Virus record (IMG/VR): IMGVR_UViG_3300005613_000196
Span: 1-37,648 of that record
DNA: 37,648 bases
Source: a virus
Strand: one strand, 5' to 3'
The position numbers and the translations under genes were made by a program. Within the stretch, counting starts at the first letter, position 1; each line of letters opens with the position of its first letter. Under the pieces are notes generated by a model, which worked only from the letters and a program-made list of their open reading frames with translations, ran no database searches and had not been told where the DNA came from. This document shows positions 1,160 through 37,180 of this stretch, in pieces.

Positions 1160-3334
1160 GTGGCAACTGTCAAAGAACTCGAACAGAAAGCAAAGGATCT
1201 AAAACGACTCCTGGCCGAAGCGAAAAAGATCGCGGGCAATTCAGGAGGCGGAGGATTTGATCACAATGCGTACCATCGGGAATATCAGAGCAAGAAGAAC
1301 GCGGCCGCTCGTGAGATCACAATTCGCAAATGTGCGGAACCAAACCGCCGTGCGGACTTACTGGCCGATCCGGTGGAGTACATCAAGTTCTATTTTGGCG
1401 AGAGATTTTGGCGGCCGATGTCTCGATCGCAAATTGAGACTATCAATTCAATCGTCGAAACCGCACGCATGGGATCGGATGAAATCTTTTGTGCTCCGCG
1501 CGGTGATTGGAAAACAGAAACGGCAAAAGCGATGATCAACTATCTGATCACTTCCGGAATCGTCTGCTTCCCAGTAATTATTGGATCGACCGCCGATGAT
1601 GCTCTGATGAAATTTAACGACATTAAATCACAGTTCGAAAAGAATGATCGACTCGCGGCCGACTTTCCGGAGATATGCGATCCGATCCATGCACTCGAAG
1701 GAGCACCGTCGAAAGCTCGCAAGCAAACGGTGAGCGGTGAACTTACGGATTTCTATTGGCAATCGAAGTTTGTCACGTTTCCGCACGTTGCCGAGGTTCC
1801 TGGAAGTGGAGTCAAAAGTCCTTTTTCAAAATGTGCGTTGACATATCGCGGATTAGATGCGGCAATTCGCGGGATCAATGTTTACGGTCGCCGGCCGGAC
1901 TTGGCGTTTTGCGACGATCTGGAGACGAGAGAATCAGCCGACTCCGACCATCAAACGGAGATCCGTGAGCGGTTGTTGGACAACGATGTTGCTGGACTCG
2001 CCGGCGGTGGAGAATCACTTCCTCGGATCGTGCTCGGAACCATTCAAAACAACAAATGTCTCACTCACAAAAAACTGATCGAATGGGGCGGCCGGCAATA
2101 CAAAGCGGTTGACAAGTGGCCGAGTGCTCGCGGGATGGAACTGGCGGAAGAATATATCGAGACCAGGAAAGCAGAGAAATCGGAAGGAACAAAGACTTAT
2201 CCGAATTCGCGAAAGTTCTACATAGAACACCGCCAGGATATCGAATCGGCCGTGGTGGTCGGCAACGAACATTGCTTTTCGTCCAAGACGGACAAAGAAG
2301 GTTTGCCGATTGAAGTTTCGACGTTTCAACGAGTCCTGAACAACGCGGCCGATAATGGCTGGTCTTACGTTTGGTGTGAACTTCAAAATGATCCACCGGA
2401 CGAAAAGAAAATCGAAACCATTGGTTTGACATCGGCCAAAGTAATGTCGCGAATTTCCGGTCTCAATCAAAAGGAATCCGACAAATACACGGAACTCACC
2501 ACCGCCGCGATCGACCTTGGAAAATACGCTTGCCATTGGGCCATTGTGGATTGGATGGAAGGATTAACCGGCCGAGTCACAAACTACGGTGTCGCCGAAG
2601 TACACAGCGAAGGAATCGGCGACGACAAAGCACAAACCGCAATGTCACTTCGATCCGCGTTAATGAATTTCAGGAGTGAACTACTCGGCGGTGAACTTTC
2701 AGAACGCAAGCCCGATATCGTTTTGATTGATTCATCGAACTTCACAGACACGGCGTATTCGTTCGTCAAAGAAATTGCGGCCGAGTCTTCAAATTTCTAT
2801 GCGATCAAAGGACTCTCACCATATCGCAGCTATCAGCGGATTGAGGGAAAGAGGATCGTCGGCAACCATTGGCATGCGAATTTACAAGAGAGAGACGCGG
2901 TTTGGTTGTATCTTCTCGACACCGATGCACTGAAAACGATGGTTCATCAAATGTGGGCGACTCCAACTTTCGACGAGGTGAATCAATACAATCCGCTTTC
3001 TCTCTCGCTTTACTCCTCGTTCACGGACGACGGGAAACCGAATCCAAGAAAGCATAATTCATTCGCAAAACACCAAGTCGCGGAGGAATACCGAGAGGAG
3101 TTCAAGCCAGGCAAGGGAATGATTCGCGGTTGGCACCAAAGCAACCCCAATAATCACTGGTTTGATTGTATGTATATGAATTTGGTCGCGAGCTTTATGA
3201 AGGGGATGAAACCGCCGTTCGAGCCAAATCCAATCCCAACACCACCACCATCGAAACAACCGGAACCACCGAAGACCGAAAGCCGCAGTGGTTACGCTCG
3301 CGGCCAAAAACCATTTCTAGCACGGAGAAGATAA
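1160..3334 (+). CDS. terL: terminase large subunit, ATPase plus RNase H-like nuclease
   Basis: This 724-residue protein is the DNA packaging motor. The ATPase part carries the Walker A region CAPRGDWKTE at 111-120 and a Walker B-like strand DLAFCDDLE at 247-255. The nuclease part has the spaced acidic residues expected of a large terminase: D452 in AAIDLGKY, D524 in IVLIDSSN, and D669 in HWFDC (666-670), resembling GpA-type terminases. The Walker A glycine before lysine is replaced by Trp117 (codon TGG at 1508-1510), which is atypical. The start is GTG at 1160, five bases after the methyltransferase stop; an ATG at 1158 is in another frame and closes after a few codons. The last ~50 residues are a proline-rich, basic tail. 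Position upstream of the portal supports the call. Confidence 0.9.
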   Translation: MATVKELEQKAKDLKRLLAEAKKIAGNSGGGGFDHNAYHREYQSKKNAAAREITIRKCAEPNRRADLLADPVEYIKFYFGERFWRPMSRSQIETINSIVETARMGSDEIFCAPRGDWKTETAKAMINYLITSGIVCFPVIIGSTADDALMKFNDIKSQFEKNDRLAADFPEICDPIHALEGAPSKARKQTVSGELTDFYWQSKFVTFPHVAEVPGSGVKSPFSKCALTYRGLDAAIRGINVYGRRPDLAFCDDLETRESADSDHQTEIRERLLDNDVAGLAGGGESLPRIVLGTIQNNKCLTHKKLIEWGGRQYKAVDKWPSARGMELAEEYIETRKAEKSEGTKTYPNSRKFYIEHRQDIESAVVVGNEHCFSSKTDKEGLPIEVSTFQRVLNNAADNGWSYVWCELQNDPPDEKKIETIGLTSAKVMSRISGLNQKESDKYTELTTAAIDLGKYACHWAIVDWMEGLTGRVTNYGVAEVHSEGIGDDKAQTAMSLRSALMNFRSELLGGELSERKPDIVLIDSSNFTDTAYSFVKEIAAESSNFYAIKGLSPYRSYQRIEGKRIVGNHWHANLQERDAVWLYLLDTDALKTMVHQMWATPTFDEVNQYNPLSLSLYSSFTDDGKPNPRKHNSFAKHQVAEEYREEFKPGKGMIRGWHQSNPNNHWFDCMYMNLVASFMKGMKPPFEPNPIPTPPPSKQPEPPKTESRSGYARGQKPFLARRR

Positions 3335-4129: not shown

Positions 4130-5087
4130 AGCCCTTGATGAATACGACCCGAACGTGGAATTGAAAGCTCGGTTGAAAGAATCCGAGGCGAAAAACAAGT
4201 TGCTTGAGTCCCAATTGAATATGGCATCAAAGCAACTCGAAAGATCCAACGCCGCGAAGTTCAAATTATCACTCGGCAAATCGAAGAAAAAGAAAGGAAG
4301 CGGATTTTGCCGGGTGATCATCCCAGATTCCCACGGCTCCGCGATCAATAAAAAAGCAGCTAATGCGTTTTTGGGTGACCTAGACTATATCAAGCCAGCA
4401 GAGATAGTGATGCTTGGCGATCACATCGATTGCGGTGGGTTCCTCGCGCAGCACCATACCCTTGGATATGTCGCCCAAACGGAATACAGTTTCATCGATG
4501 ACGCGATTGCGGCCAATGTCTTTCTGGATGAAATCCAAAAGCGAACGGGAAAAGTTGAAACCGATTATCTTGAAGGGAATCACGAGCGGCGGATCGAAAA
4601 TTGGATTGTGACGCAAACGCTTGGAAAGAAAAAGGACGCTCAATTTCTTCAATCCATGTTCTCCATTGAATCCACGTTGAACATCTCGAAGCGAGGATTC
4701 CGGTTGATTGAACAGGGGAAATTTTACGACAAGGTGAAACTTCCCGCGACAATCAAAAAAGGCAATTGCTATTTCACCCACGGAAGCAGCACGGCAAAAC
4801 ACGCGGCCGCCGTTCATGTTGCGAAATTTGGTGGAAACGTGGTCTATGGTCACACTCACCGCGCGGACTCATACATCGGGAAGAATGTCAAAGATGGAAT
4901 GATTGGCGCGTGGTGCCCTGGGTGCCTATCGGAGTTACAACCGCTTTGGCAACACACCAACCCAACAGACTGGAGCAATGGTTACGGATTGCAGATGGTT
5001 AAAAGCAACGGTCGATTTCTCCATATCAATGTCCCAATCGTAAATGGTATCAGTCTCCTCAGTCCCTTGATCGATGAGTTGAAATAA
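4119..5087 (+). CDS. calcineurin-like metallophosphoesterase
   Basis: 322 residues with all blocks of the calcineurin-like phosphoesterase fold in order: PDSHG (69-73; the usual DxH), GDHID (100-104; GDxxD), GNHE (153-156), a lone His in FTHGSS (221) and GHTH (244-247). These residues coordinate a di-metal centre that hydrolyses phosphoesters. The first ~60 residues form a charged helix, probably a coiled coil, ending in a lysine run. Such enzymes are frequent in phages near the packaging genes or in DNA metabolism; the substrate (nucleic acid, nucleotide or protein) cannot be inferred. The start overlaps the previous gene by 11 bases and the stop overlaps the next start (TAATG). Confidence 0.88.
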   Translation: MLDKALDEYDPNVELKARLKESEAKNKLLESQLNMASKQLERSNAAKFKLSLGKSKKKKGSGFCRVIIPDSHGSAINKKAANAFLGDLDYIKPAEIVMLGDHIDCGGFLAQHHTLGYVAQTEYSFIDDAIAANVFLDEIQKRTGKVETDYLEGNHERRIENWIVTQTLGKKKDAQFLQSMFSIESTLNISKRGFRLIEQGKFYDKVKLPATIKKGNCYFTHGSSTAKHAAAVHVAKFGGNVVYGHTHRADSYIGKNVKDGMIGAWCPGCLSELQPLWQHTNPTDWSNGYGLQMVKSNGRFLHINVPIVNGISLLSPLIDELK

Positions 5088-18653: not shown

Positions 18654-18718
18654 CTAAATCTGCATTGTGCCAAAAATAATTCCAGAAAAGTGAATTTATT
18701 TTTTAAAAAAAATGTCTA

Positions 18719-18770
18719 GATTGATGTTGATTTTAAATTTTGCAGTGCGTATGATCAATCGAAATCAATC
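18719..18770. promoter_or_regulatory. GATTGAT / ATCAATC operator-like repeats around the early promoter
   Basis: GATTGAT at 18719-18725 is the inverted partner of ATCAATC at 18754-18760, and a direct copy ATCAATC lies at 18764-18770. The three 7-mers bracket the -35 and -10 boxes, the placement expected for repressor sites. No protein is assigned; the small helix-turn-helix protein encoded nearby is one candidate. Confidence 0.45.
18727..18755 (+). promoter_or_regulatory. sigma70-type promoter for the early operon
   Basis: -35 TTGATT (18727-18732), 17-bp spacer, -10 TATGAT (18750-18755), in an AT-rich stretch. Transcription should begin near 18762 and run rightward into a ~165-nt leader. It is the best promoter match I see in the window and is placed at the divergence of leftward and rightward genes. 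Confidence 0.6.
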
Positions 18771-18929
18771 ACGGCAAGCGACGGACGGAAACAAATGGAA
18801 TCTAAGTCGCAAGGATTCGAAGGATCGGCCGCGATTGGTTTTTTAAGCTGTCAGAATTAACAAACAAACAAAAACCGAAACCGGTTTTAAACGTCTTGGC
18901 TCCTGACAGCGCCAAGGCGTTTTTTTTTT
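18762..18929 (+). ncRNA. structured leader / candidate attenuator RNA
   Basis: Between the promoter and the first early gene the transcript can form a hairpin AAAACCG/CGGTTTT (18871-18888), then the terminator hairpin. The terminator loop contains CTGACAGC (18903-18910), an exact complement of GCTGTCAG at 18847-18854. The loop could therefore pair upstream as a pseudoknot or an alternative fold. I see no known riboswitch class. The element may release a small RNA of about 165 nt or control read-through into the early operon. Confidence 0.45.
18892..18929 (+). terminator. strong intrinsic terminator
   Basis: Nine-bp stem CGTCTTGGC (18892-18900) with GCCAAGGCG (18911-18919), one G-U pair, ten-nt loop, followed by ten T residues (18920-18929). 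Since it lies just upstream of the early genes, the operon needs read-through, antitermination or another promoter. Confidence 0.85.
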
Positions 18930-22333: not shown

Positions 22334-22528
22334 ATGAAAACACTCAGACACACAATCGACGCGATGAATCGGGATATCAAACGAGCGAGGGAAACACTCC
22401 AAACGACCAAGGATTACGCGGCTCAAATTCGTTGCAGATCCTTGATCAAAAAGTTCTCCACCGTGGTCATCAAACTGAAGAAGGCAGTTAGGGAAATCGA
22501 ATGTCAGCTTGGACGCATCGGCCAATAA
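22334..22528 (+). CDS. small basic coiled-coil protein
   Basis: 64 residues, strongly basic and helical throughout (MNRDIKRARETLQ, LIKKFSTVVIKLKKAVREIE), probably a dimeric coiled coil. GGAG lies about eight bases before the ATG. It overlaps the sigma factor gene by 28 bases. The charge suggests nucleic acid contact or sigma/RNA polymerase partnering, but no family is recognised. Confidence 0.5.
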   Translation: MKTLRHTIDAMNRDIKRARETLQTTKDYAAQIRCRSLIKKFSTVVIKLKKAVREIECQLGRIGQ

Positions 22529-23172
22529 CGGCGGAACAGGAATTCGAATTAATCGCGAAAGCCAAGGAGGGCTGTAGCGATTCAATGAACCGATTGTTTG
22601 AGGGGCACTTTCCCTGGTGGGTGAAGCAATGCTCAGAGTTCCTCAAGCATCGTTTCATCAATTCGGCAATTGGCAACGAATACCGAGGCAATTATGAGAT
22701 GGACGAATTGCTCTCCATTTGCTTCATTCAAATGCGACGGTCGGTGATGATCTTCGACCAGTCTCGCGGAAACCGGTTGCTCACTTATTGCGGATTCAAT
22801 TGCTGGAAATGGTTTCACGGTCGCGAGCGTGTGGAATATCGGCCGATTATGATGGTCGATGATGAATACCTAAAAGACACGGCCGAGATTCCAGATCCAA
22901 CGGTTGAGTTGATCCATAAATTTAATGCGGAACAATACAAATGGATTGTGAAAAATGCAGTTGAAACGATGTTGCACGGACGAGAGAAGGAAATCATCCA
23001 GAAAAGATATCTCAACGACCATCCGCAAACGCTGAAATCGATCGGCGAGGATTTAGGAATATCAAAGGAGCGGGTGAGACAGATCGAGCGAGAGTCAATG
23101 GCGGCTCTCATGCGGTACTTCGAAAAACACTATCCGTGGTTGAGCGGTGAGATTCGCGGGGAAAATTTATGA
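22501..23172 (+). CDS. phage-encoded sigma factor of the sigma70 family
   Basis: 223 residues. An N-terminal sigma region 2-like helical part (EQEFELIAKAKEGCSDSMNRLF, then RGNRLLTYCGFNCWKWF) and a C-terminal region 4 helix-turn-helix at about 158-208: LKSIGEDLGISKERVRQIERE, the classical sigma70 promoter -35 reader. Length fits a small group 3/4-like factor. It would steer host RNA polymerase to phage promoters, presumably of the late genes. GGGAAA is found near the ATG at 22501. Its stop overlaps the helicase start by four bases. Confidence 0.85.
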   Translation: MSAWTHRPITAEQEFELIAKAKEGCSDSMNRLFEGHFPWWVKQCSEFLKHRFINSAIGNEYRGNYEMDELLSICFIQMRRSVMIFDQSRGNRLLTYCGFNCWKWFHGRERVEYRPIMMVDDEYLKDTAEIPDPTVELIHKFNAEQYKWIVKNAVETMLHGREKEIIQKRYLNDHPQTLKSIGEDLGISKERVRQIERESMAALMRYFEKHYPWLSGEIRGENL

Positions 23173-27547: not shown

Positions 27548-27640
27548 ACCACAACAAAACCAAAGAACTCCTCCGCCGGTTGGTCACCTCGATCATCCGG
27601 CATTTTTTTGCCACCAATCAAACCGATAACGAAAAACCTC

Positions 27641-30163
27641 ATGCAATACGACATCACGGAAGTTAAAAACACGGCCGTGAATCGATGGGGCGAGATATTC
27701 ACCGCGCTCGCATCCATCAATTCAGCCATCCTGGACGGATCAAACCACCCGTGTCCGAAACACTGCTCACCGGATGCCGGCGGAAAGGACCGGTTCCGAT
27801 TCATTGACAAAACAGATGGCTCCCTCTTTTGCAACCGGTGTTTCGAATCGAAGAATGGCGACGGAATCGCGGCGGTCCAATGGTTGCTGAACATCGATTT
27901 CAAAACCGCACTTCACAAAATCGCGGAATATCTCAACATCAAACCAAAGGGGAGGCAGAAAAAGAAAAACATCAATCCAACAAATGACCTTGAATTCCTC
28001 GACTGGAACTCACAACTCGCGAAATATTGGTGCAAAACGAAAGAACCAATCACCGAAGAATCGCTCATTAAATGCCATGCTAGGCAAGCTCTTTATAAAT
28101 GCAATGGAGCACAAATCAAGGTGATTGCAATTCCGACATGGAGCGAATCACCCACGAAGCCAATCGGCTGGACTCTGTACGCGATCAGCGGCGGAACACT
28201 CCCCAAGCGAATTGGGAAGAAAGTGGAACAGGTGAAAGTCAAACTCACCTATGGATCAAAAGCCGGGTTGATTGGTCCGGAAATGTCACCCGATGCAAAG
28301 GAGATTTGGAAGACGGAAGGCCCAACGGACCTCCTGGCATTCCTTTCGATGGATGGATTGCCATCAAACGTCGCGGCTTTCTGTAATGCCAATGGCGCGA
28401 AGGAGGATCCATCACGAGCTTTCCAATGGTTGCCGGAAAAACTCAGCGGAAAGAGTGTCTATGTAATCCACGATTGCGACGAACCAGGGCAGGAAGGAGC
28501 GACCGAGATTCCGAGAACCGATGGATCCATTCGGCCGGGCTGGTGTCCCTTTCTGGCCGGTGGTGGTGGTGATGCTGATGGTCCGGCAACCGTGAGGAAC
28601 ATTGTTCTCCCGTATCCAATCGCGCCAACGAACGGAAAGGATTTGAGGGATTGGTTGGCCGAGGGTAATGGATACGAACAACTATCACATCTCACTTCAA
28701 CCGCCGTGATCATCAAACCAATTGATCCGAAAGTTCTTAATGAGATCATCGAAGCGGAGGATGATCCACATCGGCTCGCGCGGGTGAATCTTGCAAGATA
28801 CAAATCCTCCCATGATGGCCGGCTGATTTATTGGCGTGATGAGTGGTGGAAGTATAAGTCCGGATGTTATTCGAAGATTGAACCGAACGAGCTAAGGGCA
28901 AAATTGACCGCAACGATTCGGAAGGAGTTCGAAAAGTGCTTTCACGATCAGCAGCCGGAAGGGGACAAAGAAAAGAAGCCGATTAAAAAAGTGACGCGTG
29001 GATTGGTCACCAATGTGATCGGGGCAACGGAATCAATGGTCACTCAATCGGGCTCGATTGAAATGCCATCATGGTTACCAGATCGAACGCAAAGAAATTA
29101 TCTATCGGTGAAAAATGGGATCCTAAATCTCGATGCACTATTTGAGCGGGATGGTGAGAATTGCTTTATCCCTCATTCACCGAATTGGTTCTCATCGCTC
29201 CGGCTGAATTACGATTTTGATCCAGAAGCGGAAGCGGCGGAATGGAAAGAATACATCAACTTTATCACTGAGGGAGATCAGGAGAAAATCAACCTCTTGC
29301 AAGAATGGGCGGGTTATCTCCTCTGGCCGAAGTCCGAACGGCAATCGTTTCTGGTATTCGAAGGCGAAGGTGGAACGGGAAAGAGTAGCTTTTTCGCTGG
29401 AATGGCGGCCATGCTCGGTGAGGAAAACATTTCCAGCCTATCGCTTGAAGACCTCGGAGATTCGTTTGGGCTCGCGTCCACGGTCGGCAAGGTTGCTAAT
29501 ATTGCTGGTGATGTTGGGACGATTAACGGGAACGAGGAAGCAATTCTAAAGCGGTACACTGGCGGCGATAAGGTGGAAATCCAACGAAAATTCCTCCCAT
29601 CGCTATCCATTCGACCAACCGCAAAAATGATGATGGCGTGGAACACTCGGCCGCGATTTCGGGACAAGTCCGAGGGGCTCTGGCGGCGAATGATTCTAAT
29701 TCCGCTCAATAACCAAGTCGGATCCAAGCGAGTTTTTGGAATGGATAATCCGCGATTCTGGGCGGCCGAGGCTCCTGGAATTATGAGGTGGGCGCTCGGT
29801 GGATTGAATCGACTACTGGACCAAAATAAGTTCTCGGAATGCAAAGCAACCACGGCCGCGATCGAGGAGTTTAAGAACGAAGTCAACCCGATCAAAAGGT
29901 TCTTTGACGATTGTATCAAGCCAACTGATCACGGCGCAATCGAGTCCCAGAGGATCTATCAAGCATACAAGCACTGGTGTCAAACGACCGGCCATCACCC
30001 ACTTTCGGACGCCGCACTTGGTAAACAATTGAGGAAATTTTTTCCAGAAGTGGAGCGAAAAAGATTTCGAACGGGAAGAAAATTGGTTTGGAAATACGAA
30101 AGAATAATTTTTTCAGTTGAAGAAATTAACGGAATGAATGTGATCGAGAGCGATCTGTTCTAA
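27641..30163 (+). CDS. primase-helicase with zinc ribbon, TOPRIM and SF3/D5-like ATPase
   Basis: 840 residues from ATG 27641; the TTG at 27608 is less likely. A zinc ribbon (C38, C42, C64, C67), a TOPRIM fold with Glu226 in KTEGPTDLL and DCDEPG at 278-283, a D5-like N domain, and an SF3-type ATPase with GEGGTGKSS (575-583), then IAGDVGTI and WNTRP... WRRMILIPL. It should prime and unwind phage DNA, serving as the main replication initiator. No strong ribosome site. The C-terminus ends ESDLF, an acidic/hydrophobic tip. The candidate origin lies directly after it. Confidence 0.88.
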   Translation: MQYDITEVKNTAVNRWGEIFTALASINSAILDGSNHPCPKHCSPDAGGKDRFRFIDKTDGSLFCNRCFESKNGDGIAAVQWLLNIDFKTALHKIAEYLNIKPKGRQKKKNINPTNDLEFLDWNSQLAKYWCKTKEPITEESLIKCHARQALYKCNGAQIKVIAIPTWSESPTKPIGWTLYAISGGTLPKRIGKKVEQVKVKLTYGSKAGLIGPEMSPDAKEIWKTEGPTDLLAFLSMDGLPSNVAAFCNANGAKEDPSRAFQWLPEKLSGKSVYVIHDCDEPGQEGATEIPRTDGSIRPGWCPFLAGGGGDADGPATVRNIVLPYPIAPTNGKDLRDWLAEGNGYEQLSHLTSTAVIIKPIDPKVLNEIIEAEDDPHRLARVNLARYKSSHDGRLIYWRDEWWKYKSGCYSKIEPNELRAKLTATIRKEFEKCFHDQQPEGDKEKKPIKKVTRGLVTNVIGATESMVTQSGSIEMPSWLPDRTQRNYLSVKNGILNLDALFERDGENCFIPHSPNWFSSLRLNYDFDPEAEAAEWKEYINFITEGDQEKINLLQEWAGYLLWPKSERQSFLVFEGEGGTGKSSFFAGMAAMLGEENISSLSLEDLGDSFGLASTVGKVANIAGDVGTINGNEEAILKRYTGGDKVEIQRKFLPSLSIRPTAKMMMAWNTRPRFRDKSEGLWRRMILIPLNNQVGSKRVFGMDNPRFWAAEAPGIMRWALGGLNRLLDQNKFSECKATTAAIEEFKNEVNPIKRFFDDCIKPTDHGAIESQRIYQAYKHWCQTTGHHPLSDAALGKQLRKFFPEVERKRFRTGRKLVWKYERIIFSVEEINGMNVIESDLF

Positions 30164-30220
30164 GAAAAATTTTTTTGACGATGAAAAAATTTTTTTGAGT
30201 TGAAAAAAATTTTTTGAGAA
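30164..30220 (+). repeat. three tandem 19-bp A/T-tract repeats
   Basis: Units start at 30164, 30183 and 30202, each with a GAAAAA(AA)TTTTTT(T)GA core. Related tracts recur at 30528-30540 and 30560-30575 inside the next gene. Such phased, easily melted and intrinsically curved tracts are frequent at replication origins. Confidence 0.75.
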
Positions 30221-30518
30221 ATTTTCAACCGATGACAACCACCACCGCAAAACATGATGAAAAAGTCAAATGTTCCCAGAAAAGTTCCCCGATTTTCCTA
30301 GTGATTTTTTTTACTGGGAACACAGTTTGACCCCTATTTTTATTACCTTTTCTTCTTCTTGTTCCTATGTTCCTAGTAAATATAGATATATATAGGGAGA
30401 GTAAGAAAAGAAGAAAATAAAAAATAAAAAGAGGGTAAGAAAATAAATAAATAAAAAGAGAGTAATAAGTTAGAGCGTAAGTAGGAAACCCCTAGGAACG
30501 CGGGAACACTGAGAACAA
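30164..30518. other. candidate replication origin with GTTCC iterons
   Basis: 355 AT-rich bases without a gene. It holds the 19-bp A/T repeats; the perfect inverted pair TGTTCCCAG (30271-30279) and CTGGGAACA (30314-30322); further GTTCC copies at 30284, 30361 and 30369; reverse copies CTAGGAAC (30492-30499) and GGGAACA (30502-30508); and a purine-rich, A-rich stretch near 30400-30475. Iterons plus an unwinding element next to the primase-helicase is the usual phage origin design. No promoter could be singled out. Confidence 0.5.
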
Positions 30519-30896
30519 ATGGATTTTGAAAAATTTTTTGGTGAAACGAAAACTGATGAGAAAAAATTTTTTTTCGTCGGTGGAACGGAGGAAGAAAAAA
30601 AACCTCAGTCGCCGGATCGGAAAGTTGAGCAGGTGGAAGCGAAGGGCTCCGCCGACAGCACCACGGCCGATTTTTTGGAGGGGCGAGCGGAGGACGAAAT
30701 CTCTTCCTCTCACATCTGCCCATCGTGCCAAGATTCCGAATGGTGGATTGATATCCATCTCGGCGGTCCACATTGCATCCATTGCAAACCTCCTCCGGCT
30801 CATGGAATGGTGAGGGAAAGATTTTTCTACGATGATCGCGGGAATCGATGGGGAATCACGGCCGGAAAAAAGATGGAAATTTGGCGAAAAGTTTGA
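30519..30896 (+). CDS. zinc-ribbon hypothetical protein
   Basis: 125 residues. A Lys/Glu-rich N-terminal half, then a zinc ribbon CPSCQDSEWWIDIHLGG with CIHC, and a short C-terminus (FYDDRGNRWGITAGKKMEIW). The first codons overlap A/T tracts like those in the origin region. It may bind the origin or be a small replication accessory; not proven. Its ATG at 30519 lacks a strong ribosome site. Confidence 0.6.
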   Translation: MDFEKFFGETKTDEKKFFFVGGTEEEKKPQSPDRKVEQVEAKGSADSTTADFLEGRAEDEISSSHICPSCQDSEWWIDIHLGGPHCIHCKPPPAHGMVRERFFYDDRGNRWGITAGKKMEIWRKV

Positions 30897-33944: not shown

Positions 33945-34271
33945 ATGGAACAGAAACAGGACAGTAGATTGAACAACTTTTTGGAAGATTCGAAGGTGAG
34001 ATTTGCGACTCTAATTTTCGTGGTTGTGTTTATCCTTGGGACGATCACGGGACTCTGTCTGTTCATCTTCAAAGAATCACAATGGCGCACGAATATCCAG
34101 CGTGACATCTCTGACCTTCGTGCAACAGTCAATGAAGTTAAGGATTTGGTTCAAGGCAGTACAAGTGATCGATTCACATATACGCAGATGAAGACATGGG
34201 TTACGCGATTCAAGGAATTAAACGAAGACTCACCGATCAAAATTCCAACGCTGCCAATGAGGTTTCCATGA
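33945..34271 (+). CDS. membrane protein with one transmembrane helix (holin or spanin candidate)
   Basis: 108 residues. A charged N-terminus, a transmembrane helix at about 20-43 (FATLIFVVVFILGTITGLCLFIF), then a heptad-like helix (WRTNIQRDISDLRATVNEVKDLV). One TM plus coiled coil is the plan of i-spanin-like and some holin-like proteins; the order before a peptidase-like gene fits a lysis block. No family signature decides. The stop overlaps the next start (ATGA). Confidence 0.5.
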   Translation: MEQKQDSRLNNFLEDSKVRFATLIFVVVFILGTITGLCLFIFKESQWRTNIQRDISDLRATVNEVKDLVQGSTSDRFTYTQMKTWVTRFKELNEDSPIKIPTLPMRFP

Positions 34272-34723
34272 TACCCGTAAAAGTTCATTTCTATCGTGGT
34301 ACTGGATTCATTGGACGGGCCATTCGTTTCTTTTCATGGGGCGAGCAATCCCATGTGGCGATGCAAATCAACAACACGCTTTATGAGGCTAAAGAATTTC
34401 ATGGAGTCATTAGAACTAAGTACCCAGAAGCGGCACAACGTAAACCAGACTGGACATTGACACTCGAAGCGGATGAACAGCAAGTTTTAGATTTGATCCA
34501 CTGGTGGCAATCACACATCGGCAAATCATACGATTATCGCGGAGTCTTCCGGTTCATTTCAAGACGCAAAGAAGACCACAAAACTAAAGACAAATATTTC
34601 TGTAGTGAAGCGGTTTGCGATGCGTGTGAATTCGCAGGCATTCCGCTTTTTAACCGGGTTGATGGTTCAAAGGTTCCGCCAGCCTGGGTATTTCGAAGTT
34701 TACGACTAAAGGAAAAAGAATAA
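34268..34723 (+). CDS. permuted NlpC/P60 (YiiX-like) cysteine hydrolase, putative lysis enzyme
   Basis: 151 residues from ATG 34268. The YiiX/YebB-type permuted papain-like fold shows an early SHVAMQI with His29, a TLYEA strand, then KYFCSEAVCDAC with Cys112 as nucleophile. Such enzymes act on amide bonds of lipid, peptide or peptidoglycan. With the TM protein upstream it is a reasonable endolysin candidate, but no cell-wall binding domain is visible. The stop overlaps the following ATG (TAATG). Confidence 0.65.
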   Translation: MIPVKVHFYRGTGFIGRAIRFFSWGEQSHVAMQINNTLYEAKEFHGVIRTKYPEAAQRKPDWTLTLEADEQQVLDLIHWWQSHIGKSYDYRGVFRFISRRKEDHKTKDKYFCSEAVCDACEFAGIPLFNRVDGSKVPPAWVFRSLRLKEKE

Positions 34724-35103
34724 TGAACACATTAACCGTTGAATGTAAAAACTGTATACGCTTTCAACTTGAAATGGCTATGGACGATCTGTTCGTAGAC
34801 TCACAAGATAAAACGCTTTCATTCTGGGAACGTCGGAAGAAGAAGCAACACGCTAGATTGATTCGACAGGTATTACGCAACCCAAAGAAGCTAGAAGAAC
34901 TTGAAGAGTTCGTCCAAAAGAAGGCGACTAGCTACCACCTAGAAAAAGGCATGGTAGGAGAATTTGGAGACGGTTCTATCATTGCATGGCTTCAGGATGG
35001 CGGATTGGAACAGATTTTAGAATTCTTAAAAGGGTTGTTTGAGATAATTTCGATTTTCTTTTTGCTTCAATTCATTCTCCTTTCAATCGTGTTGGGCATC
35101 TAA
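34723..35103 (+). CDS. hypothetical protein with C-terminal membrane helix
   Basis: 126 residues. A basic helical middle (WERRKKKQHARLIRQVLRNPKK, KLEELEEFVQKK) and a hydrophobic C-terminal segment (GLFEIISIFFLLQFILLSIVLGI) that should insert in the membrane. Such tail-anchored layout could be holin-like or help localise the neighbouring hydrolase. No family recognised. It is coupled to the gene before by TAATG overlap. Confidence 0.5.
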   Translation: MNTLTVECKNCIRFQLEMAMDDLFVDSQDKTLSFWERRKKKQHARLIRQVLRNPKKLEELEEFVQKKATSYHLEKGMVGEFGDGSIIAWLQDGGLEQILEFLKGLFEIISIFFLLQFILLSIVLGI

Positions 35104-35112
35104 GGCGAAACA

Positions 35113-35904
35113 ATGAAACTTTTCACGACCAGTTTGATAATCTCACTATCAATCATCCTTTCGTCCTTCGCTACCTTGGACGGACTAGCCGCGCCCAAAC
35201 CTTCCCGTGTGTTCTCGGGCGCGGCTTATCTTGCAAATGGACTATCGGTTAGCGGCGAATCGGCGGTTGCTATTGGCGATACGGTTGTCCTTTCTCCGGT
35301 TGATGCTGATGGATGTTCGATTACTTGGACACCGATTCAGGGCATCGAGCTAATCGGAAAAATGGTACAGACAAACGAACAGCGGGCGATTATCAATGAC
35401 GATTTGGAATTCATCGGGTTGCCTATTTCGTCTCTGGTATTCAAGCCATCCAAATCGGGAACGATCCGCTTTCAATGCACCGCGATTGATTGGGATAAGC
35501 GGAAGTTCTTTCAAGTTATTCATAGCGTAACTGTATCAGGAAAAGCCAAACCAGACGATGAAAAAGAACCAGACGACGACAAGCCGGAACCACCAAAACC
35601 GGAAGTTGTTTTTTCAAAGACTGATTACCTGGTACTAATCGAGGAAAGCGAAGAACGGAGCGCTAAAACAGCGGCCATTGTTATGTCGGAATGGTGGCAG
35701 TTGGGATTAGTGAGAGACGGTTACAATAAGCCGCTCATTAAAGATGATGACGGAGCCGGAAAAGATTTTGTGACAACGGCCAAAGCGAGCGGGAGTTATT
35801 CAGACGTTCCGTTCATTGCGATAATGGACAAAGACGGAAATCTAGTCTCGACTTTTGCGCTGCCAGATACCGTTGATGAATTGAAAAAGGAGTTGGTACT
35901 ATGA
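35113..35904 (+). CDS. secreted thioredoxin-like fold protein without CxxC
   Basis: 263 residues. A signal peptide (MKLFTTSLIISLSIILSSFA, then cleavage near GLAAP), an Ig-like domain (about 35-150), a Pro/Glu/Asp linker, and a C-terminal part with YLVLIEESEERS, DVPFIAIMDKDGNLVSTFALP and DELKKEL, a thioredoxin-like pattern with no CxxC pair. It is predicted to act outside the cytoplasm. AAGGCG lies ahead of the ATG. The stop overlaps the next gene's start. The role could be virion, superinfection or envelope related. Confidence 0.55.
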   Translation: MKLFTTSLIISLSIILSSFATLDGLAAPKPSRVFSGAAYLANGLSVSGESAVAIGDTVVLSPVDADGCSITWTPIQGIELIGKMVQTNEQRAIINDDLEFIGLPISSLVFKPSKSGTIRFQCTAIDWDKRKFFQVIHSVTVSGKAKPDDEKEPDDDKPEPPKPEVVFSKTDYLVLIEESEERSAKTAAIVMSEWWQLGLVRDGYNKPLIKDDDGAGKDFVTTAKASGSYSDVPFIAIMDKDGNLVSTFALPDTVDELKKELVL

Positions 35905-36716
35905 GCTACCACATAATTGATTTTGGCGGTAATTTGTACCACACTGGCAACTTGAAGCCATCGGTCAAAAATTGCAAGGTTAAGCGATGGCGAATCAAGC
36001 AATTCGGACGGGCAGCAATCGAAGGATTGATTAACGATCCAAGCAGAGTTAAAGCGGCTGATATGTTCGGTCCTGAATGGATTTACAACCAAGGATCAAT
36101 TGGAAGTTGTAACGGGTGCGCAGGTGCAAAGGCTCTCCAACGGCAACGAGTGTTAGCAGGGCAACCAAACGTCGAACTATCTGGCGAATTCCTCTATTCT
36201 CGGATCAACGGTTCGCGTGATGTTGGCTCGATGCTTGATGACGGAATGGAATGGCTGAGAGACAACGGCGTTTCACCATGGAAACCGCGACACGCGCAGA
36301 AGTTCCGCGAACGCGATTTCACAGCCGAGGACGTGCGCGATTCTGTTCGGTTCCGGGGTGTCGAATGCTATGGTGTCGATTCTGAATTAGAGCTTGCAGC
36401 CGGAATAGCTCTTGGATTTACAGCGGTTGTTGCAGTTCATGCTGACAATGGATTCATGCGATTAGATTCGAATGGAATCGCAGGTGGTGGAAACGGTCCA
36501 GGCAATCATGCAGTGGGAATAGACGACGTTGAGATTTTCGACGGTGAACTAGTCTTCAGAATGTTCAACAGTTGGGGCACGAACTACGGCGACAATGGCT
36601 ACGCTGGACTGACTTGGAAGCGGCATTTCAAGACAACCAATAAGTACCACTATTTCTATCTGATACGAGCGGTTAATAATGACACTCAAGACAATGTACC
36701 GGAGTTGAACCAATGA
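35901..36716 (+). CDS. papain-like (C1A-type) cysteine protease
   Basis: 271 residues with a full catalytic set. Q64 and C70 in NQGSIGSCNGCAG correspond to the papain QGxCGSCW block; His203 lies in GNHAVGIDD; Asn223 in FNSWGTNYGDNGYAGLTW. No signal peptide is clear. A papain-like enzyme is unusual for a phage lysis or tail block; it could process a virion protein or attack a proteinaceous envelope. GGAG sits about nine bases before the ATG. It is coupled to both neighbours by ATGA overlaps. Confidence 0.82.
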   Translation: MSYHIIDFGGNLYHTGNLKPSVKNCKVKRWRIKQFGRAAIEGLINDPSRVKAADMFGPEWIYNQGSIGSCNGCAGAKALQRQRVLAGQPNVELSGEFLYSRINGSRDVGSMLDDGMEWLRDNGVSPWKPRHAQKFRERDFTAEDVRDSVRFRGVECYGVDSELELAAGIALGFTAVVAVHADNGFMRLDSNGIAGGGNGPGNHAVGIDDVEIFDGELVFRMFNSWGTNYGDNGYAGLTWKRHFKTTNKYHYFYLIRAVNNDTQDNVPELNQ

Positions 36717-37180
36717 GAAATATCAGAATAGCGGTTGTTGTGTTAGCATCAATGGCGGCTGTTGTGTTATCAGAAATGTTCATTGGTGCGGTGCTCATCG
36801 GCAAGGATGAGCCACGGTTGAAAGTTCCACCGCGGCTAAAGGTGATGACAGCGGCAAAGACTGCAACCGACACGAATGTCGGAACCAAAGAGCCACTACC
36901 ACCACTACCAGAGACAACCACAGTTGTCACAAAGACACCGAAAGTTATCTATCGCTCTGCAAGTTCGCCACGGTGGAACCTTAGCGGATCATGGTCGAGG
37001 GTTCGAAACAGGGCCGATCTAATCAATCACTTGGCAACGACTCACGAATACAGCAAAGCGACATTGAACCAAATGAGCCTAAACCAACTATTTGCACTCC
37101 ATGATGACGATCACGAAGGACGGTCGACATTAACCAAGGCCACTAAAGCCGTTGATGATTGCCCGCCTGGTAGCACGTGA
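36713..37180 (+). CDS. membrane-anchored hypothetical protein with C-terminal helical domain
   Basis: 155 residues. An N-terminal hydrophobic segment (IAVVVLASMAAVVLSEMFIGAVL) is a membrane anchor or signal. A Lys/Thr/Pro-rich linker follows, then a module LINHLATTHEYSKATLNQMSLNQLFALHDDDHEG that looks like a small compact helical domain. No family is named. The location after the protease suggests an envelope partner. The start overlaps the protease stop. Confidence 0.5.
   Translation: MRNIRIAVVVLASMAAVVLSEMFIGAVLIGKDEPRLKVPPRLKVMTAAKTATDTNVGTKEPLPPLPETTTVVTKTPKVIYRSASSPRWNLSGSWSRVRNRADLINHLATTHEYSKATLNQMSLNQLFALHDDDHEGRSTLTKATKAVDDCPPGST

Follow-up and report, generated by a model that had tools for sequence, protein, structure and literature searches.

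A candidate replication origin of the P4/PICI type directly behind the primase-helicase gene of a phage without cultured relatives

In the PICI/SaPI pri-rep-ori module, the origin lies immediately 3' of the initiator gene, with two sets of iterons placed around an AT-rich region (PMC6092414). The origin of the crenarchaeal plasmid pRN1 lies in the first 166 bp downstream of its primase-helicase gene, and both pRN1 and phage BIP-1, whose replication proteins combine primase, SF3 and winged-helix parts, carry a non-coding stem-loop of ~100 nt downstream of the replication gene (PMC4234260). Satellite phage P4 (NC_001609) encodes a P4-family primase-helicase, alpha, with Zn-ribbon, D5_N, SF3 and winged-helix parts, and directly 3' of alpha lies the cis replication region crr, where the annotation lists ten type I repeats that occur in both orientations. 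Two of the three P4 tracts made of at least five A and at least five T, A>=5(N)T>=5, are found in crr beside the type I iterons (A6T8 at 4291-4304 and A6GT8 at 4471-4485). In P4-like elements of E. coli both crr tracts are kept while their middle base and flanks change, even though the most diverged crr copies are only ~78% identical, indicating that the AnTn-type tract is a conserved part of such replication sites and providing a precedent for the tracts described below. In most of the genome matches listed, similarity to P4 crr starts at the outer tract. We know of no role for these conserved A/T tracts, and a literature search on P4 crr and SaPI5 brought up no openly accessible footprinting paper.

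Here we studied a region of 412 bp (30164-30575) directly behind a P4-family primase-helicase gene in a virus record from IMG/VR that has 37,648 bases and is classified as linear; the window that we analyzed is the entire record. A preliminary description had put this region forward as a candidate replication origin, and that proposal is supported by the family of the adjacent gene, the origin-binding fold of its product, the layout of the iterons, a melting region, the tracts of P4 crr and an enrichment of 3' iterons across the gene family. We consider it probable that the region is the replication origin of this phage, that it is of the P4/PICI type, and that the adjacent primase-helicase uses it.

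Like crr, the site lies directly 3' of its gene and has A5-6(N)T5-8 tracts adjoining the iterons; the P4 type I iteron (TGTTCACC) and the iteron of the window (TGTTCCYAG) have a TGTTC core in common, while the rest of the word differs. Unlike P4, which has one tract per 120-bp repeat, the window has five tracts in two edge groups, and it represents a full-size phage with terminase, portal and capsid genes of its own. As in PICIs, two iteron sets flank AT-rich DNA 3' of the gene, one copy on the left being reversed, but the full virion gene set is not the gene content of a satellite and the A/T tracts are an addition. The pRN1 system differs in having an iteron-free origin and an archaeo-eukaryal type of primase, whereas the window has iterons and a stem-loop that is weaker when judged against shuffles.

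The primase-helicase gene and its surroundings

The gene (27608-30163, + strand) encodes a protein of 851 aa, our proposed initiator, with a Zn ribbon, D5_N, an SF3 helicase (DUF5906) and a C-terminal winged helix. That a primase-helicase adjoins the site, as initially described, was confirmed by a TIGR01613 score of 185.5 bits against a curated cut-off of 108.7. Pfam matched the 851-aa protein to Zn_Ribbon_Prim, D5_N, DUF5906 and Pox_D5/RFX; P4 alpha, which served as our control, gave Zn_Ribbon_Prim, D5_N, DUF5906 and Pox_D5 in the shared order, plus Toprim. No Pfam Toprim model matched the 851-aa protein at E<=0.01, and Toprim-like motifs (EGPTD and DCDEPGQ) are visible by eye. Scans for close relatives with single proteins (primase, RecD-like helicase or terminase) revealed nothing near; a search with a two-member primase alignment yielded nine relatives at 22-27% identity, the nearest primases being 26-27% identical.

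AlphaFold2, given the C-terminal 200 residues and ten relatives, predicted a winged-helix domain of the origin-binding type at residues ~758-838 (29879-30121, + strand; pLDDT ~90). Upon comparison by VIA-align, this domain resembled the RFX1 DBD (Z 13.1), the RFX5 DBD (Z 13.0) and the P4 origin-binding domain 1KA8 (Z 9.3, rmsd 2.9, 80 residues), which we confirmed by sequence to be part of P4 alpha. Judging from position and family, the 851-aa protein would be the one that recognizes the TGTTCCYAG iterons.

The gap behind the stop codon (30164-30518; 355 bp) is the longest among the accepted genes (runner-up: 254 bp) and also the most AT-rich gene gap (GC 0.31). Reading from left to right, the stop codon of the primase-helicase gene is followed by three GAnTn tracts, mostly forward iterons, an unstable purine-rich centre, iterons that are all reversed, and the start of a zinc-ribbon gene with two GAnTn tracts in its first 19 codons. 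This gene (30519-30896, + strand), taken from the ORF list, shows coding-like codon use from its ATG and encodes a Zn-ribbon (CxxC...CxxC) protein of 125 aa, for which we obtained a weak PHROG match only and found nothing in support of a role. An Rfam search of the window returned zero families, and DNA similarity to known phages around the 3' end of the primase-helicase gene was not detected.

The phage has terminase and portal genes of its own (by PHROG) as well as a large block of structural genes (from the ORF list), with the large terminase gene (TerL) at 1160-3334. The position just before a large terminase gene is often that of a small terminase; here, immediately ahead of TerL, 58-1155 encodes a ParB-like domain fused to a DNA methyltransferase. 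Elsewhere, 33945-37180 includes a papain-family C1 peptidase (35901-36716), and 34196-34723 gave a weak match to a YaeF-like permuted papain enzyme.

Iterons, unstable DNA and A/T tracts

The GTTCC copies in both orientations that had been noted earlier are indeed present, seven GTTCC/GGAAC words lying inside the region, where the genome's densest 300 bp for them is found, although the 9-mer TGTTCCYAG describes the repeat better. All three perfect copies of this 9-mer in the genome are inside the region, as are 7 of the 13 genome sites with at most one mismatch, and there are nine copies in the region when two mismatches are allowed. On the left side these are TGTTCCCAG (30271-30279, +, no mismatch), a degenerate copy (30283-30291, +, two mismatches), TTTTCCTAG (30293-30301, +, one mismatch), a second TGTTCCCAG (30314-30322, -, no mismatch), TGTTCCTAT (30360-30368, +, one mismatch) and TGTTCCTAG (30368-30376, +, no mismatch); on the right side we found CGTTCCTAG (30492-30500, -, one mismatch), the degenerate TGTTCCCGC (30500-30508, -, two mismatches) and TGTTCTCAG (30509-30517, -, one mismatch), the last of which ends 1 bp ahead of the ATG of the next gene. 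The iterons therefore run mostly forward in the left set (30271-30376) and are all reversed in the right set (30492-30517), and the two sets are not perfectly opposed because the copy at 30314 is reversed. The latter is the inverted partner of the 30271 copy: the perfect 9-bp inverted pair of the preliminary description was recovered (TGTTCCCAG at 30271-30279 and CTGGGAACA at 30314-30322), and with GTCAAA/TTTGAC added the stem measures 15 bp and has a bulge of 3 nt. The 450 bp that follow the stop codon contain 54 repeat pairs, compared to 13.6 ± 6.4 in dinucleotide shuffles, none of 100 shuffles reaching 54. In a coarse repeat scan of the whole record the region ranked 3 of 165, and the top two places (~8.1 kb and ~26.8 kb) are within coding sequence.

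Gene gaps can also hold operators, which commonly contain inverted repeats, and one could read the site as a regulatory region whose operators and promoter serve the zinc-ribbon gene and the genes after it. It would be bound by the zinc-ribbon protein or the sigma-like factor of the phage, and perhaps also be used by the primase-helicase for autoregulation. The virus does encode a sigma-70 region 4 protein of 223 aa (22501-23172), whose gene adjoins a RecD2-like helicase gene. However, neither a sigma-70-like promoter on the + strand nor a terminator was found above chance in the region, and nine iterons spread around 100 bp of unstable DNA exceed what an operator needs. We give this reading very little weight as an account of the region, while noting that a regulatory role and an origin are compatible and not mutually exclusive.

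The least stable 100 bp of the genome, 30373-30472 (nearest-neighbour stability: -1.043; genome mean: -1.408, sd 0.065; 5.6 SD off), lie between the two iteron sets and form a probable DNA unwinding element; the purine-rich AT stretch that had been reported here is real and spans 30380-30480. When folded as a single strand, the region was more stable than its shuffles (z -5.1). Two predicted stem-loops contribute local folds: one with iterons in its arms at 30265-30331 (DNA fold of 30262-30334: -12 kcal/mol, z -3.9, 0 of 200 shuffles) and one of ~100 nt with purine/pyrimidine arms at 30332-30434 (DNA fold of 30330-30436: z -3.1, 0 of 200 shuffles), the latter falling to z -2.5 (4 of 200 shuffles) when a slightly wider stretch was folded. 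The preliminary description had looked to GC skew for the position of the origin. Nothing in the skew places the origin elsewhere, and there is no sign change at ~30 kb; over the whole genome and at four-fold sites the skew follows gene direction, and it is uninformative for locating the origin.

The other six near-matches to TGTTCCYAG are scattered, with two together at most (34790 and 34824), and the near-match scan of the 37.6-kb window revealed no second iteron cluster. This differs from P4, in which an annotated ori with the same iterons is found ~4.5 kb from crr, and it bears on the alternative that the region is an auxiliary cis site for replication, comparable to crr with its distant ori, and that initiation takes place elsewhere. 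In its favor, the P4 site behind alpha is crr, and the window shares AnTn tracts with it. However, in addition to the lack of a second cluster, the next most AT-rich gap (18674-18927) is without direct repeats and looks promoter-like, and the least stable DNA of the genome sits in the 30164-30575 region itself; we therefore regard an auxiliary site as unlikely. The gap at 18674-18927, which lies between a reversed gene and the early operon, contains a hairpin followed by a T run (GCGCCAAGGCGTTTTTTTTTT) near 18.91 kb and looks like a divergent regulatory or promoter region.

The outer edges of the region are marked by A/T tracts. The left group comprises A5T7 at 30165-30176, A6T7 at 30184-30196 (+19) and A7T6 at 30203-30215 (+19). 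The three 19-bp repeats reported previously are thus present, with left edges at 30164, 30183 and 30202, exactly 19 bp apart, but the period is near-exact and not exact as had been stated, since the ends of the T runs are spaced 20 and 19 bp. The right group, A5T6 at 30529-30539 and A6T8 at 30561-30574, lies at the start of the zinc-ribbon gene, in agreement with the preliminary description, and occupies codons 4-19 of the ORF; codon use in this segment is typical of the genes of the virus, suggesting that the right tracts are probably within coding DNA. These five (A5-7T6-8) are the sole tracts with at least five A followed by at least five T in 37.6 kb, compared to an expectation of 0.32 per genome under an order-2 Markov model. 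In a simple curvature model with wedge angles, 30306-30365 was the most curved 60 bp, but several other places scored nearly as high; we do not rely on this result.

Phased A/T tracts could instead mark curved DNA bound by terminase at a packaging (pac/cos) site, a reading that is a rival for the tracts only. We found three phased AnTn tracts in nine IMG/VR contigs; in six of these, four of them independent, the tracts lie at terminase genes, and SPP1-type small terminases have been proposed to select intrinsically bent DNA, as at SPP1 pac (PMC4737164). However, TerL is ~27 kb from the region, or 8.5 kb if the ends are joined; the arrays at terminase genes are without a TGTTC iteron cluster and mostly have a spacing of ~21 bp; P4 itself has AnTn tracts in crr; and the iterons and the melting region would be left unexplained. 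We rejected a packaging site for the window on account of the distance from the terminase gene, and consider it most improbable. As a separate observation, phased A5-6T5-7 arrays at the starts of terminase genes were seen in four independent IMG/VR phage groups (L005:9978-10077; L006:3412-3486, also L010; L007:4876-4928, also L012; L008:4016-4063), with a spacing of ~18 bp in L008 and with the large terminase confirmed by PHROGs. These arrays are a possible packaging-site signature.

Iterons behind other P4-family genes

For a survey of the layout, P4-family genes were gathered from phages and plasmids, from IMG/VR contigs and from 61 surveyed genomes that belong to a single phylum, and one statistic was applied to all loci, namely a repeat excess downstream of the stop codon (450 bp) that none of 100 shuffles reached. 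Such an iteron-like excess was present behind 23 of 47 P4-family genes, compared to 17 of 136 other gene ends at the same loci (Fisher p=9e-7, a guide only, because the set is phylogenetically unweighted and the loci were partly found via similarity to the window protein). At z>=5, the counts were 13 of 47 and 2 of 136, respectively. When the window and P4 were left out, 21 of 45 P4-family genes remained by the shuffle cut and 11 of 45 at z>=5. The rule is not universal, since most of the nearest relatives of the window primase are without 3' iterons, several of them having another gene directly behind the primase, and since 24 of the 47 P4-family genes do not pass the strictest cut.

The iteron words differ between loci while the layout recurs. 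Opposed sets around a centre 3' of the gene were found in Streptomyces, Pseudonocardia, Klebsiella, Bacillus, Deinococcus plasmids, a Peptococcaceae MAG and others; at locus L062, ATGTTCCRTCA iterons form opposed sets around AT-rich DNA. In the Streptomyces virginiae plasmid NZ_CP108186, opposed sets of TGTTCAGGG iterons flank a less GC-rich centre behind a P4-family gene. This plasmid differs from the window in its GC-rich host, in its more numerous and tighter copies and in being without AnTn tracts. To our knowledge, no origin has been published for this plasmid. A TGTTC/GTTC word occurs in the iterons of the window, P4, L017, L045, L062 and possibly L036; this observation was made post hoc, and we treat a shared iteron word across several families as a lead.

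We also came across strong unannotated iteron arrays of 10-12 copies at L017:4206-4490, 3' of 5161 in L025, 3' of 5017 in L022, 3' of 2853 in L043 and 3' of the primase stop in L063. The loci with such arrays are Streptomyces, Pseudonocardia and Deinococcus plasmids, a short IMG/VR contig and a genome contig, and the arrays lie directly behind P4-family primase genes.

Proposed mechanism and implications

If the region is the origin, the 851-aa protein would bind the TGTTCCYAG iterons through its C-terminal RFX/P4-type winged helix, and two SF3 hexamers would assemble on the opposed iteron sets and melt the unstable purine-rich centre (30373-30472). The primase part would then prime both strands, leading to bidirectional replication. 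The GAnTn tracts at the outer edges, as the putative counterpart of the AnTn-type tracts of P4 crr, would provide stiff, bent DNA that probably brings the iteron sets together or binds a host nucleoid protein.

An origin of this kind is known; the spread of the 3' iteron layout outside satellites is less expected. Iterons around AT-rich DNA immediately 3' of a primase-helicase gene, a layout said to be absent from known bacterial replicons outside PICIs, may be ancient and common to P4-family primase-helicases, whether in phages, plasmids or chromosomal islands of bacteria, and perhaps of archaea. We offer this tentatively, with slightly less than even confidence. This phage would then represent the full form, with the A/T tracts as a defined third module, and the iterons would often keep a TGTTC core that is read by the RFX-type winged helix.

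Our analysis proposes a concrete pair of origin and initiator for a phage without cultured relatives, and the survey points to comparable arrangements in further replicons. Specialists may find two observations useful, namely that many P4-family genes are followed by 3' iterons and that P4 crr has conserved A/T tracts. The finding also suggests a simple rule for locating the origins of uncultured phages, plasmids and islands, 'look just behind the P4-family primase'.
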